DNA of 64,000 bases from Rhodobacteraceae bacterium Alg231-04 (GTDB taxonomy: Bacteria; Pseudomonadota; Alphaproteobacteria; Rhodobacterales; Rhodobacteraceae). Below the pieces are notes generated by a model, which saw only the letters and a list, made by a program, of their open reading frames with translations, was not told where the DNA came from and ran no database searches. Positions within the stretch are counted from its first letter, which is position 1; each line of letters begins with the position of its first letter. The stretch is from NCBI GenBank assembly GCA_900143635.1, contig FREY01000014.1, positions 1 to 64,000 of the forward strand. Reading direction: 5' to 3'. Below, in pieces: positions 56,962 through 64,000 of the stretch. The translations under genes were made by a program, and so were the position numbers.

Positions 56962-56985
56962 ACTCTTCAGACAGATTTAATCGGG

Positions 56986-57018
56986 AGGGGCTAGGGAGAC
57001 CTGGCCCCTTTTTCTTTT
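56986..57018 (+). terminator. Terminator after adk
   Basis: AGGGGCTAGG-GAGA-CCTGGCCCCT (one G-U pair) followed by TTTTTCTTTT. Confidence 0.88.
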
Positions 57019-57028
57019 GGAAGACACA

Positions 57029-57475: not shown

Positions 57476-57630
57476 AGCCCATCCCTTCGGGGAATCATTC
57501 CTGTGGTCAGATTCTGTCCGGCCACAAGACCACCTCAAGAATGCTGGACCCCCTGGCACCACTGCCAAGGTCAAGCGTTGTGAAAAAAGGTTCCGGCGCT
57601 ACGGAACCGCAACGAAAAGGAAAGTGACAC

Positions 57631-57999
57631 GTGGCACGTATTGCCGGCGTTAACATCCCGACTGCAAAGCGGGTTCCCATCGCCCTCACCTATATCACCG
57701 GAATCGGTAACACATCGGCCGCAGAAATCTGCGAATCCGTAGGCATCGACGTGACTCGTCGCGTTAATGAACTGTCCGACGCCGAAGTTCTGGCCATCCG
57801 CGAGCACATCGATGCAACCTACACCGTTGAAGGTGACCTGCGTCGTGAAACTCAGATGAACATCAAACGTCTGATGGATCTGGGCTGCTACCGTGGCCTG
57901 CGTCACCGTCGTAACCTGCCCGTTCGCGGTCAGCGTACCCACACCAACGCTCGTACCCGCAAAGGCCCCGCAAAGGCCATCGCTGGTAAGAAGAAGTAA
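57631..57999 (+). CDS. rpsM: 30S ribosomal protein S13
   Basis: 122 residues starting [20 protein letters not shown] (GTG start at 57631), with [20 protein letters not shown]. rpmJ, which precedes it in E. coli, is absent here, as usual in alphaproteobacteria. Confidence 0.97.
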
Positions 58000-60255: not shown

Positions 60256-62772
60256 ATGACCGGCACGCAAAAGAATGAAGGCAGGGGTTCGTCCCTGTTC
60301 AATCCAAGCATCAAGGCAAAGATCCTAACAGCAGCATTGGTGCCGCTGGTATTGATTGTTGGCGTTGGTATTTGGGCCGTCTCCAATCTTGGCCGCATGG
60401 AAGAGCGCTCCGCCTTGGTGGCGCATACCCAGAGTGTGCTGAGCGACGCGCAGGCGATTATGTCTTCTGCGGTGGACATGGAAACCGGATTGCGCGGCTA
60501 CCTTCTCGCTGGGCAAGACGCCTTCCTGGAGACATATAACACCGGCGATGCCGCCGCTTTTGTTGCGCTATCCAATCTGCAGGGCACCGTCAGTGACAAT
60601 CCGGCTCAAGTCACCCGCCTGGAAGAGGCGGAGCAGATCTTGAGTGACTGGAAGACCGATGTCGCGGCGGAAGCAATCGCTCTGCGTCGTGAAATCGGTG
60701 ATGCGTTGACGATGAACGACATGGCGGATGAGGTTAAAAAGGCGCGCGGGGCCACCTATTTCGAACCGTTCCGAGCCGAGATTGAAGCCTTCATCGCGGA
60801 TGAGGAAAAGCTGTTGTCGGATCGGCGCGGGACTTTCTCGATGCTGGTTACGGCAGGCATTGCGCAGACCGATTTCATAATTGAACAAATGGAAGCCGTC
60901 GAACAGACGATGCTGACGATCAAATCTGCCAAGGACATTCTGGTTGCGGCAGTCGATATGGAAGCCGGAATGCGGGGTTTCCTGCTGTCCGGCGATGAGG
61001 CCGTTCTTACCCCCTACACCGCCGGCGCGGAACGTTTCGAGACCCTGGTGGCCGAACTCTCGGTTGCAGAAGGCACGCGCCCGGAACAGGCCGAACGGCT
61101 GGCCAATAGCGCCGCCATTATCGCGGACTGGCGCGGCAAGGTGGTTGAGCCCGCTTTGACCATGCGCCGGGACATCGGTGACGCGGCGACCATGGATGAC
61201 ATGGCCGATATGGTCGCTGAGGGGCGTGGCAAGACATATTTTGACAGGTTCCGCAGCGTGATGGCGGAATTCACCGCAGAAGAACAAGCTCTTATGACCG
61301 CGCGCAGCGCCGCCAACGAAGCGGTGTCACGTCAGACGCGTACTTTGTTGCCGATTGCGATTGGGGTTGCTGTTCTGCTTGGGGCCATTCAGGCCTTGAT
61401 CATCGGCGGCGGCATTTCCAGAGCTGTGCGACGTACGATCGGGTCCATGCAGGGGCTGGCAAATGGCGACAATGCGGTCGAAATCACCGGACAAAAACGC
61501 GGTGACGAGATTGGCGACATGTCCCGCACGCTGGAGGTCCTGCGCAATGAACTGGCAGAGCTGCAGGAGGCCGAGAAGAAAAAGGCCGAAAGCCGAGATG
61601 CTGCGCAGACAGCCGTGGTGCAGACACTCAGCACCAATTTGTCAAAGCTGTCCAAAGGGGATTTGACGGTTCAAATTCACGACAGCTTCGGATCCGACTA
61701 TGAACAGCTGCGTCAGGATTTCAACACCACGGTATCTACCTTGCAGACGGTCGTTCAACAGGTGGAGGACACCACCCAAAGTATCAGTGCAGGGGCGGCG
61801 GAGATCACCCAGGCCTCTGATGACCTGTCCCATCGGACCGAAAGTCAGGCCGCGACGCTGGAAGAAACGGCCGCTGCCATGGAAGAGATGACAAGCAGTG
61901 TGAAATCTTCGGCCAAAGGTGTGCGCGATGTCGAGGCGACGATCCATGACGCCCGTGGCGACGCTGAAAACAACCGGAAAGTTGTTGAGGATGCAGTGGC
62001 GGCTATGACCGGGATCGAACAATCCGCCGGGCAGATCAGCCAGATCATTGGCGTGATCGATGACATTGCCTTTCAGACCAACCTTCTGGCCCTGAACGCC
62101 GGCGTTGAAGCCGCGCGTGCAGGTGAGGCGGGGCGCGGTTTTGCGGTTGTTGCCAGCGAAGTACGTGCCCTGGCACAGCGCTCCTCCGAGGCTGCGACCG
62201 AGATCAAGACATTGATCGGTGAAAGCTCGCGTCAGGTGGAGCATGGGGTGGATCTGGTCGGTAAGGCTGGTACGGCGCTGCAGAGCGTGGTGGCGCAGGT
62301 CGGGCATATTTCCACTCTGGTGTCGGGAATTGCCGAAGGCGCGTCGGAACAATCAACCGGCCTGAACGAGATCAACGTTGGCGTGGAGCAGTTGGATAAG
62401 GTGACCCAGCAAAACGCTGCTATGGTGGAACAGGCAACGGCTGCCAGCCAGCTTCTGAAGAACGATGCGGGCAAGCTGGCCGGGCTGATTTCCCACTTCC
62501 AGACCGGAAGTGGGGCAGGCGGTTCTGTTGGACTGCAGGCCGAAACTCCATTTGCCGGTACAGCGGATTCTGGAATGGCCGACGGCTTCGCTGACCACGA
62601 AGAGGCAGCGTCGTTTGGCGCACCGTCGGCCCATGGCGATGATATGGACAGGGCCTGGCTCGAAATGGATCCGGTGCCTGCCGACAATGGTGGTCATTCC
62701 TTTGACGAACCACCTTCATCGGTTCCGGCAAAGGCCACAGGTACCGATGATTCTGTCTGGCAGGATTTTTGA
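60256..62772 (+). CDS. Methyl-accepting chemotaxis protein with duplicated CHASE3-like sensor
   Basis: 838 residues. Membrane helix 1 (about 22-44); periplasmic region 45-362; helix 2 (about 363-386); HAMP; signalling domain with hairpin tip [21 protein letters not shown] quoted in part as [20 protein letters not shown]. The sensor part consists of two copies offset by exactly 160 residues: [14 protein letters not shown] (74-86) versus [14 protein letters not shown] (234-246) and [16 protein letters not shown] versus [16 protein letters not shown]. The ET/EA-G-x-R-G-x-L-L motif is CHASE3-like. The C-terminus ends VWQDF, fitting the CheR/CheB-tethering pentapeptide x-W-x-x-F. Start ATG 60256 chosen; upstream frame is cysteine-rich and unlikely. 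Confidence 0.93.
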
Positions 62773-62833
62773 ACAAGCGCGGGCGCCCATGGACGGGGGC
62801 CCGCTGATTTCTTTCCGATAGCGACAATCAGGG

Positions 62834-62862
62834 GTGACAGGGCGGTTTTTCTTCGCTAGCGT
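62834..62862 (+). promoter_or_regulatory. Promoter of the DAHP synthase leader transcript
   Basis: GTGACA (62834-62839), 17-base spacer, TAGCGT (62857-62862). The start point expected seven bases on falls on the A of the leader ATG (62869), implying a leaderless transcript, as in the trpL RNA of Sinorhizobium. Confidence 0.5.
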
Positions 62863-62868
62863 CCGCCC

Positions 62869-62946
62869 ATGACCCACGTAAACACCACCTTCTGGTATTT
62901 TTATTATCCGCGCCATCAGGCGGCCGGAAGGGTCTGCGTGTTCTGA
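62869..62946 (+). CDS. Aromatic leader peptide (attenuation) upstream of DAHP synthase
   Basis: 25 codons: MTHVNTT, then Phe-Trp-Tyr-Phe-Tyr-Tyr, then PRHQAAGRVCVF and TGA 62944. Six consecutive aromatic codons in a tiny ORF placed 108 bases before a gene of aromatic biosynthesis are the hallmark of ribosome-mediated attenuation. No Shine-Dalgarno is visible, in keeping with a leaderless start. Hairpin TTCTGA/TCAGAA (62941-62946 with 62956-62961) includes the stop codon. Confidence 0.75.
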   Translation: MTHVNTTFWYFYYPRHQAAGRVCVF

Positions 62947-62980
62947 GTTCCAGGGTCAGAAACCGCAAGACAGCAAACCG

Positions 62981-63005
62981 AACCGCCCCTTACGAGGCGG
63001 TTTTT
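62981..63005 (+). terminator. Attenuator hairpin before DAHP synthase
   Basis: AACCGCC (62981-62987) pairs with GGCGGTT (62996-63002), followed by TTT. GGCGG at 62919-62923, inside the leader ORF, can pair with the same CCGCC and would act as antiterminator arm when a ribosome stalls upstream at the aromatic codons. Confidence 0.7.
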
Positions 63006-63054
63006 GTGTTTTCAGACATACCGTCCGGGGGGCTCCGCTAAGGAAAGCCAACCA

Positions 63055-64000
63055 ATGACTGCCCAAACCCAAAACCTTCGCATCTCTGGCATGCAGGAAC
63101 TTGTTTCACCGGAAGAGCTGGCAACACGCCTGCCTCTGAACAGCACTGTTGCGGACACCGTCCTAGATGGCCGGGCGTCCATACAAAAGATCCTGCACGG
63201 GGCTGACGACCGGCTGATTGCGATTGTGGGGCCTTGCTCCATCCACGACCCGAAGGCGGCTCTGGAATATGCACGCCGACTTGCTCCGCTGCGCGAAAGA
63301 CTCTCGGGGCAGCTGGAAATTGTCATGCGCGTCTACTTCGAAAAACCCCGCACGATTGGCGGCTGGAAAGGGCTGATCAACGACCCTGGCCTTGATGAAA
63401 GCTTCCGCATCAATGACGGGCTGGCCGCCGCCCGCGGCCTCTGCCTTGAGATCAACAGCTTGGGGCTTCCCGTTGGCACTGAATTCCTCGATGCTTCGGT
63501 GCCGCAGTACATCTCCGACCTGGTCGCTTGGGCGGCGATTGGTGCCCGCACCACCGAAAGCCAGATCCACCGTGAAATGGCCTCCGGGCTCAGCTGTCCG
63601 GTTGGGTTCAAAAATGGCACCGGCGGCAATGTCCAAATCGCGCTGGACGCAGTGCGCTCTGCCGCCCGACCCCATCATTTCATGGCCACATCGCCAAATG
63701 GTCGCGCGGCAATTGCTGCCACATCCGGAAACCCGGATTGTCACGTTATTCTGCGCGGTGGCGGTGGCACCAACTATGATGCGGGTTCGGTGGAGCTGGC
63801 CTGCTCCAAGGCCGCCCGCGACGGTATTCGCCCGCAGGTGATGATCGACGCCAGTCACGCCAACAGCGCCAAAGATCCGGCGCGTCAGTCTATTGTCCTG
63901 TCCAATGTGGCAGAACAGCTTTCCGGCGGCGAAGCGCGCGTCACCGGGGTGATGATCGAAAGCCATCTGGTTGCTGGCCGCCAGGACCTGCCAAAAGACG
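63055..64000 (+). CDS. aroG: 3-deoxy-7-phosphoheptulonate (DAHP) synthase, class I, 3' end beyond window
   Basis: The frame from ATG 63055 (AAGGAAAG upstream) is open to the window end, 315 codons. It shows IVGPCSIHDPKAALEYA, VMRVYFEKPRTIGGWKGL, GTEFLDASVPQYISDLVAWA, ARTTESQIHREMASGLSCPV and MIDASHANS, the complete class I (AroF/G/H) core that condenses PEP and erythrose-4-phosphate. Only the C-terminal 35-40 residues are missing. Which aromatic amino acid inhibits it cannot be read safely. Gene symbol is for the family. Confidence 0.93.
   Translation, partial: MTAQTQNLRISGMQELVSPEELATRLPLNSTVADTVLDGRASIQKILHGADDRLIAIVGPCSIHDPKAALEYARRLAPLRERLSGQLEIVMRVYFEKPRTIGGWKGLINDPGLDESFRINDGLAAARGLCLEINSLGLPVGTEFLDASVPQYISDLVAWAAIGARTTESQIHREMASGLSCPVGFKNGTGGNVQIALDAVRSAARPHHFMATSPNGRAAIAATSGNPDCHVILRGGGGTNYDAGSVELACSKAARDGIRPQVMIDASHANSAKDPARQSIVLSNVAEQLSGGEARVTGVMIESHLVAGRQDLPKD

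Follow-up and report, generated by a model that had tools for sequence, protein, structure and literature searches.

The window analysed here, a stretch of 64,000 nucleotides from Rhodobacteraceae bacterium Alg231-04 (contig FREY01000014.1), ends within the gene for a class I DAHP synthase. Positions 62834-63054 belong to the gap between this gene, which starts at 63055, and a chemoreceptor-like gene that ends at 62772, and hold, in this order, a promoter, a 25-codon ORF and an intrinsic terminator, followed by the class I DAHP synthase:

62834..62839, + strand: -35 element GTGACA, a TTGACA-like hexamer kept in alphaproteobacterial leaders
62857..62862, + strand: -10 element TAGCGT, at a 17-nt spacer from the -35 element and six bases before the ATG
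62869..62946, + strand: leader peptide ORF of 25 codons, MTHVNTTFWYFYYPRHQAAGRVCVF
62890..62907, + strand: putative control codons TTC TGG TAT TTT TAT TAT (Phe-Trp-Tyr-Phe-Tyr-Tyr), from the sequence, codon-distance counts and the stall model
62908..62914, + strand: region 1, CCGcgCC, predicted to pair with region 2 if free of the ribosome (RNAalifold consensus of 19 leaders)
62919..62927, + strand: region 2, the predicted antiterminator strand, GGCGG plus CGG (core pairing with region 3; covariation)
62978..62987, + strand: region 3, CCG..CCGCC, predicted to pair with region 2 (antiterminator) or with region 4 (terminator) (pairing, covariation)
62980..63005, + strand: intrinsic terminator, GAACCGCC-loop-GGCGGTTT and a U-tract (terminator scan; equivalent site in relatives)
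63055..64000, cut by the end of the window, + strand: class I (AroF/G/H type) 3-deoxy-7-phosphoheptulonate (DAHP) synthase (TIGR00034, E 1.4e-135)

In the genome the DAHP synthase is an open frame of 396 aa, and the AAGGA 5' of its ATG reads as a Shine-Dalgarno sequence. A first-pass annotation of this DNA had described an ORF of 25 codons with Phe-Trp-Tyr-Phe-Tyr-Tyr in a row and no Shine-Dalgarno sequence, and both points hold: the ORF occupies 62869-62946, and on reading the sequence no purine-rich stretch is seen before its ATG. FWYFYY is the sole run of six aromatic residues among the 127,996 residues of the window translated in all six frames, and when 62773-63054 was resampled 20,000 times at first order (dinucleotide frequencies preserved on average only), 5 of the resamples gave a run of at least six in one of the three plus-strand frames, with or without an ORF. 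Beyond the ORF stop lies the annotated terminator with its U-tract, its stem starting 33 nt past the stop; the stem (62980-63003) has 8 pairs and is followed by a T-rich tail. It is the one terminator-like site in 62700-63100, and because shuffles of that stretch average 0.5 such sites, the terminator alone is weak evidence. Its left arm, CCGCC at 62983-62987, can pair with GGCGG at 62919-62923, so the alternative partner that the annotation had placed within the ORF is also present, and the pairing can be extended by CGG/CCG on reading the sequence. Folded alone, 62869-63008 is more stable than its shuffles (z -2.84; 4 of 200 equally good).

The leader and the gene occur together. The family was sampled at nearly one genome per genus (394 genomes); 16 of them, the window's genome included, encode a class I DAHP synthase (cut-off E ≤1e-50), and each of these has an equivalent leader ORF upstream (16/16), with the aromatic run and the terminator retained in these close relatives, as the first-pass reading implied. 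These 16 leaders, with those of two Leisingera loci and one Pseudogemmobacter locus, form the Rhodobacteraceae set (19 leaders), from which a covariance model, R1, was built and run over 388 genomes of the family. Strong matches (E 1.9e-30 to 7.9e-12) came only from the 16 gene-bearing genomes, which are themselves sources of the model; the informative part is therefore that no other genome gave a strong match, from which it follows that gene and leader go together. Weak matches were found in 6 others (2.8e-4 to 8.4e-3; the filters of the scan can lose weak matches), and those in L130, L131 and L133-L135 were rejected as further elements, as they look like ordinary terminators. The weak match in L132 (hit 1501-1608, E 0.00156) has MTQTAHMNSFYRFAI and then an AACCGCC...GGCGGTTTTTT terminator, shortly 5' of an apparent GNAT-type acetyltransferase gene (predicted), and is possibly an unrelated small attenuator.

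Outside the family the association persists. In a class-wide sample of 385 genomes, 14 encode a class I DAHP synthase, and the leader is found in 12 of the 13 other alphaproteobacterial gene-bearing genomes (the window's own aside), the 13th (L100) being cut by a contig end. The leader of L109 has only Phe-Tyr, fell below the calling threshold and was added by hand; in L109 and L106, both of family f60, the switch is intact and the aromatic run is cut to Phe-Tyr (L109) or broken up (L106), and the two leaders are a natural test of the number of control codons needed. A scan of named genomes took the best 80 of at least 590 relatives, which are the nearest relatives of this protein and not an even sample: 55 have a leader and a terminator, 23 lack the leader, L069 is doubtful and L035 is truncated by a contig end. 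Leader-positive loci include those of Leisingera, Devosia, Bradyrhizobium, Mesorhizobium and Phenylobacterium, as well as Burkholderia, Massilia, Variovorax, Xanthomonas and Dyella; leader-negative loci among these best 80 of at least 590 include those of Pantoea, Actinobacillus, Neisseria, Thauera and Nitrosomonas. Applied to the 260 nt before each of the 23 leader-negative genes, the same mechanical rule finds a hairpin with a T-rich tail at 6 of them (-8.4 to -15.8 kcal/mol), and none of those 6 hairpins has CCGCC/GGCGG arms. Mapped on a tree of 107 proteins, the leader label takes 5 changes to explain, of which well supported branches force 4, vs 21.9 when shuffled; a well supported side of the tree, with 52 rows from alphaproteobacteria and Xanthomonadales, carries the leader in every row. 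Curation by hand removed the L056 ORF as a chance one, re-picked that of L020 and moved the start of L089 to an upstream ATG.

The promoter GTGACA-N17-TAGCGT, which had been described as phased to the ATG of the ORF, is indeed so placed; TAGCGT is a poor version of TATAAT. Because six bases separate this -10 element from the ATG, transcription would be expected to start on the A of that codon. Among 43 alphaproteobacterial leaders, a TTGACA-like -35 hexamer (at least 5 of 6 bases) is present in 42 and begins at -37 to -35 from the ATG in 41, the best -10 match has its 3' end at -6 or -7 in 38 (ties broken towards -6; that of L094 is a poor match), and a C stands at -1 in 42. A start point on the A of the ATG would need just this arrangement. 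The comparison thus speaks strongly for the predicted leaderless start, through the phasing of the -10 element (38/43) and the C at -1 (42/43), and the promoter geometry strongly implies a leader RNA that would start at its own ATG. A promoter scan called a different site, at 62879-62907 (TAAACA-17-TATTAT, 9/12 match, 0.2 expected), and not GTGACA-N17-TAGCGT. The -10 of the site called consists of the leader's Tyr codons, and this internal sigma-70-like promoter was rejected, since its -35 is not conserved in the alignment of the 19 leaders. Read by eye, the sequences of Xanthomonadales and Comamonadaceae also have -10-like boxes 6-8 bases 5' of the ATG. In several Burkholderia, Caballeronia and Massilia-type relatives, by contrast, the box resembles TATAAA or TATAGT and lies tens of bases before the ATG, which on the same reading points to a short untranslated leader and not to a leaderless RNA. 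Leaderless mRNAs are ordinary in alphaproteobacteria, given that 192 start sites exactly at start codons are reported for Bradyrhizobium japonicum (PMC4842269, in the main text of which "aroG" and "leader peptide" are absent) and 375 leaderless mRNAs for Caulobacter crescentus (PMC4117421).

Of 84 candidate leader loci, 83 have a terminator in the corresponding position; the exception, L069, which lacks a convincing terminator, was omitted from the arm-swap and codon-distance counts. In the other 83 the left arm starts CCGCC or CCGCT, and in nearly all of them a matching GGCGG/AGCGG is found in the ORF, a few codons past the aromatic run; in L004, L008, L013 (Devosia-type), L049, L068 and L111 the arm and the ORF match by other bases. 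Where the left arm differs, the ORF segment often changes to match, as in the region 2-region 3 variants CTGGCGG-CCGCCAG, CCGGCGG-CCGCCGG, CAGCGG-CCGCTG and GAGGCGG-CCGCCTC of different lineages. Over the 83 leaders, the pairing between regions 2 and 3 amounts to 197 vs 171.5 expected by arm swapping (0 of 10,000 as high; kinship ignored), and over the 30 unique combinations of the two regions to 58 vs 48.8 (14 of 10,000; kinship likewise ignored). Moreover, the reading frame of region 2 differs among lineages (for example, ctg-gcg-g, tgg-cgg and ggc-gga), so that it is the RNA, and not the peptide, that is conserved there.

Within the Rhodobacteraceae set a GGCGG-type core of region 2 pairs with region 3 in 19/19 leaders, most arms run on as CCGCCC and the unbroken match is just 5 bases. 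The antiterminator has 100% of its cells paired and one covarying pair, and the terminator likewise one covarying pair. Slid by +3, the antiterminator gives higher covariation (0.205 vs 0.096), but only 75.5% of its cells are paired; the terminator slid by +3 gives a tie in covariation (0.164) and fewer paired cells. Thus, the compensatory changes that the first-pass annotation suggested looking for in the hairpins are seen between lineages, in regions 2 and 3, and come down to one covarying pair per helix among the 19 leaders. RNAalifold also predicts, for the same 19 leaders, a hairpin of region 1 (CCG..CC) with region 2. In a plain duplex fold of the window sequence, the left arm pairs by preference with a different part of the ORF (nt 59-76).

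Read from sequence, the locus combines a short ORF with clustered codons for the pathway's own end products, an intrinsic terminator between this ORF and the structural gene, and a mutually exclusive antiterminator that would use the left arm of the terminator, as in an attenuator. We consider it highly probable that the element is a ribosome-mediated transcription attenuator, through which the supply of charged aromatic tRNA would control the class I DAHP synthase; the parts and their pairing are conserved, and the regulation itself is predicted. The attenuation with an antiterminator before DAHP synthase that the first-pass annotation had put forward is, as a prediction, strongly supported by the comparison of leaders. 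The first transcribed base would be the A of the leader ATG or a neighbour of it, and a ribosome would initiate on the resulting leaderless RNA and trail RNA polymerase. With enough aromatic amino acids, the modelled ribosome reaches the stop codon and makes region 2 unavailable, and regions 3 and 4 would form the terminator; with no ribosome at all, region 1 would hold region 2 and the terminator would also form. A shortage of Phe or Tyr (less surely of Trp) would stall the ribosome in Phe8-Tyr13 and free GGCGG, which would capture CCGCC and let RNA polymerase read into aroG.

The stall model cuts the transcript before region 4, assumes a ribosome footprint of 15 nt behind and 12 nt ahead of the A-site codon, and is an equilibrium folding that ignores the order of events. 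For the window, the modelled pairing of region 2 with region 3 starts from 0.00 when no ribosome is present; placing the A site at codons 8 to 13 in turn raises it to 0.68, 0.69, 0.89, 0.91, 0.99 and 0.99, and it is then 0.58 at Pro14, 0 from Arg15 to Val24, 0.04 at Phe25 and 0.01 at the stop. Aromatic codons are not singled out by the model, because the non-aromatic codons 4-7 also give 0.80, 0.77, 0.68 and 0.68, and stalling at any codon between 4 and 13 would be enough. Over the 19 leaders the average rises from 0.20 without a ribosome to 0.59 for a stall about 27 nt from region 2 and to 0.77-0.79 at 24-21 nt, and is 0.68 at 15 nt; between 9 nt before the start of region 2 and 18 nt past it the value is ≤0.05, and near the stop it is 0.18-0.24. 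The whole switch of the window, 0.89, was reached by 0 of 40 synonymous recodings (codons drawn evenly), mainly because the native pairing without a ribosome is unusually low, 98% of recodings pairing equally or more; the stalled values, matched by 46%, 21%, 10% and 10% of 200 recodings at codons 9, 11, 12 and 13, are singly unexceptional. Taken over 29 alphaproteobacterial leaders, made up of the whole set of 19 and 10 of the 25 others, the switch averages 0.27 vs 0.06 for recodings, and in only 18 of the 29 does the native switch exceed the mean of its own recodings. The modelled switch is thus clear in the window and uneven among relatives.

Which amino acids would be sensed depends on where their codons lie. 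In the E. coli trp leader the control-codon distance is about 17-20 nt. Before region 2, Phe and Tyr codons are found in 83/83 leaders, and a Trp codon in 63 (19/19 of the Rhodobacteraceae set, 18/25 other alphaproteobacteria and 26/39 others), leaving 20 without one. At 11-23 nt before region 2, a Phe codon is present in all 83 leaders, a Tyr codon in 71 (19 of the set, 25 other alphaproteobacteria, 27 others) and a Trp codon in 23 (3 of the set, 2 other alphaproteobacteria, 18 of the 39 beta/gamma and other leaders). It is this last figure that makes the sensing of Trp less certain. The leader could then be a sensor of Phe and Tyr only, its Trp codon being too far 5' to keep the ribosome over region 1 and the supply of Trp mattering little, a reading to which we give a substantial chance, somewhat short of even. 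It agrees with a Trp codon that lies 26 nt away in 15/19 leaders of the set, where Phe and Tyr are at 11-23 nt in 19/19, and with the report that the C. glutamicum AroR peptide (Phe-Tyr-Phe) answers to Phe and not to Tyr (PMC11802643), by which not every control codon counts. Yet no leader of the set lacks the Trp codon, which in 3 of the 19 lies at 15-16 nt; at 11-23 nt it is found in 18 of the 39 beta/gamma and other leaders, and a ribosome modelled at the Trp codon of the window gives 0.69 vs 0.00 without a ribosome. The earlier proposal that stalling at any aromatic codon favours the antiterminator is thus supported in part: it is likely for Phe and Tyr, whereas a stall modelled at the Trp codon favours the antiterminator less (0.69) than one at the next four codons (0.89-0.99), and Trp is at 11-23 nt in just 3/19. 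An equal reading of all three end products, as first proposed, has to be softened for Trp, given the 20 of 83 leaders that have no Trp codon. Phe and Tyr are likely to be sensed here; for Trp the chances are about even.

Independently of which codons count, the attenuated RNA or the leader peptide might have a second function in trans, by analogy with rnTrpL/peTrpL of S. meliloti, whose attenuator RNA is of similar design (PMC7298713). We regard this as unlikely. Codons 2-7 show a third-position excess of change in 13 leaders, leaving room for some selection there; codons 14-25 of the same leaders show none, which makes it doubtful that this stretch of the peptide is under selection, and the C-terminal part of the peptide follows the RNA pairing and is read in different frames among lineages. 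Less likely still is that the aromatic-rich nascent peptide, with its very dense run, arrests the ribosome through a small molecule or drug instead of charged tRNA: arrest peptides need specific residues, whereas here Phe and Tyr interchange and the order and number of aromatic residues vary among leaders, and the gene served makes the precursors of exactly these amino acids. A chance meeting of a small ORF, an internal promoter and an unrelated terminator belonging to the chemoreceptor-like gene before it, for which the site called by the promoter scan and the 0.5 terminators expected there could speak, was rejected as extremely improbable on the aromatic-run statistics and on conservation, the parts being kept as a unit within the family and beyond, with no strong R1 match elsewhere in the 388 genomes.

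The mechanism, ribosome-mediated attenuation, is classical. The attenuators of E. coli trp and pheA have mutually exclusive 1:2, 2:3 and 3:4 pairings, with control codons ahead of region 2, a scheme that the window leader is predicted to share; they sense a single amino acid each and have a ribosome binding site. Leaders before DAHP synthase genes have precedents. In C. glutamicum, the aroR leader before aroF encodes the Phe-Tyr-Phe peptide and DAHP synthase is reported to be controlled by ribosome stalling (PMC11802643, PMC4046766); like the window leader it places aromatic codons before DAHP synthase, but it is actinobacterial, no Trp codon is named in its published description, and the reported response is to Phe without one to Tyr. 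The uORFC-13-1 motif before aroF of Acholeplasma similarly has a uORF, a terminator and at least one Phe codon, but belongs to a different group, has an RBS and is described merely as a candidate (PMC8632094). Attenuators are also predicted, in Table 7 of PMC1173090, before the aroA-I-alpha(Tyr)-tyrA operon of Vibrio, which, as in the window, would place an attenuator on a class I DAHP synthase operon, and a uORF attenuator has been proposed for cysS in Rhodobacterales (PMC8632094). The trpL leader of S. meliloti, before trpE(G), is alphaproteobacterial, and its RNA starts at the leader ATG, as predicted here, and yields a terminated leader RNA; unlike the window leader, it senses Trp only, encodes a 14-aa peptide and serves a different gene (PMC7298713). 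The analogy with trpL drawn in the first-pass annotation thus holds for S. meliloti and finds no counterpart at the window genome's own trpE, where no aromatic leader ORF was seen in the 350-420 nt upstream. The window leader itself was rejected as a trpL, since it precedes DAHP synthase and has Phe and Tyr codons.

No Rfam 15 family, among them the Trp leader RF00513 (PMC4046766), scored above its gathering threshold on the window stretch or 12 relatives, the sole sub-threshold match over the leader being Ocean-VII (14.9 bits vs a cut-off of 53.5), and NCBIfam 20 has no family for the window peptide or those of six relatives (seven in all), which marks a gap in the curated libraries. For aromatic regulons of Proteobacteria, the consulted part of PMC5343134 mentions attenuation for trp and pheA only, the main text of PMC2965389 contains none of "aroG", "aroF" and "DAHP", and the part of the matches listed from the open-licence literature holds no report of such a proteobacterial leader on aroG. 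Within these sources, an attenuated DAHP synthase (C. glutamicum aroR) and a leaderless trpL are already known, and what is new is the widespread proteobacterial leader on aroG: a leader family that is wide and has no name in the literature searched.

The genome of the window also has, on contig C17, a class II (plant-like) DAHP synthase (L098). No aromatic leader ORF was seen in the 350-420 nt upstream of its own trpE, pheA and class II DAHP synthase genes; of the four genes, then, only that of the class I enzyme at the pathway entry has the predicted aromatic attenuation. As no such ORF was seen before the class II gene, two unrelated isoenzymes open the pathway under apparently different control, and the class I DAHP synthase may be the isoenzyme made on demand. 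Elsewhere in the window, 57584-57663 (+) matches the alpha-operon ribosome binding site RF00140 (33.9 bits, E 6.5e-5, just under the cut-off of 38) and is probably an alphaproteobacterial version of this r-protein leader. A sub-threshold match to the sRNA family BjrC68 at 56971-57019 (+; 24.7 bits vs a cut-off of 39) is perhaps only a terminator, because what aligns is a strong hairpin followed by a U-rich tail.

DAHP synthase is the gate to the pathway of all three aromatic amino acids, and TyrR is described as limited to the lower gammaproteobacteria (PMC1173090). A wider reading, which we offer as tentative and think rather more likely to be wrong than right, is that an ancient and undescribed attenuator family natively controls class I DAHP synthase in much of the Proteobacteria. 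In this family Phe, Tyr and Trp would act as a graded OR gate, with a strength that falls with the distance of the codon from the switch segment; the RNA would be leaderless in alphaproteobacteria and, judging by promoter spacing, nearly so in Xanthomonadales and Comamonadaceae, and TyrR/TrpR would have replaced the attenuator in the enteric line. If true, one RNA switch common to soil, marine, symbiotic and plant-associated Proteobacteria would explain the control of the pathway without TyrR. The leaders would, moreover, form a natural set for studying how the position of a codon relative to region 2 sets the sensitivity to each amino acid and how leaderless translation is coupled to transcription.
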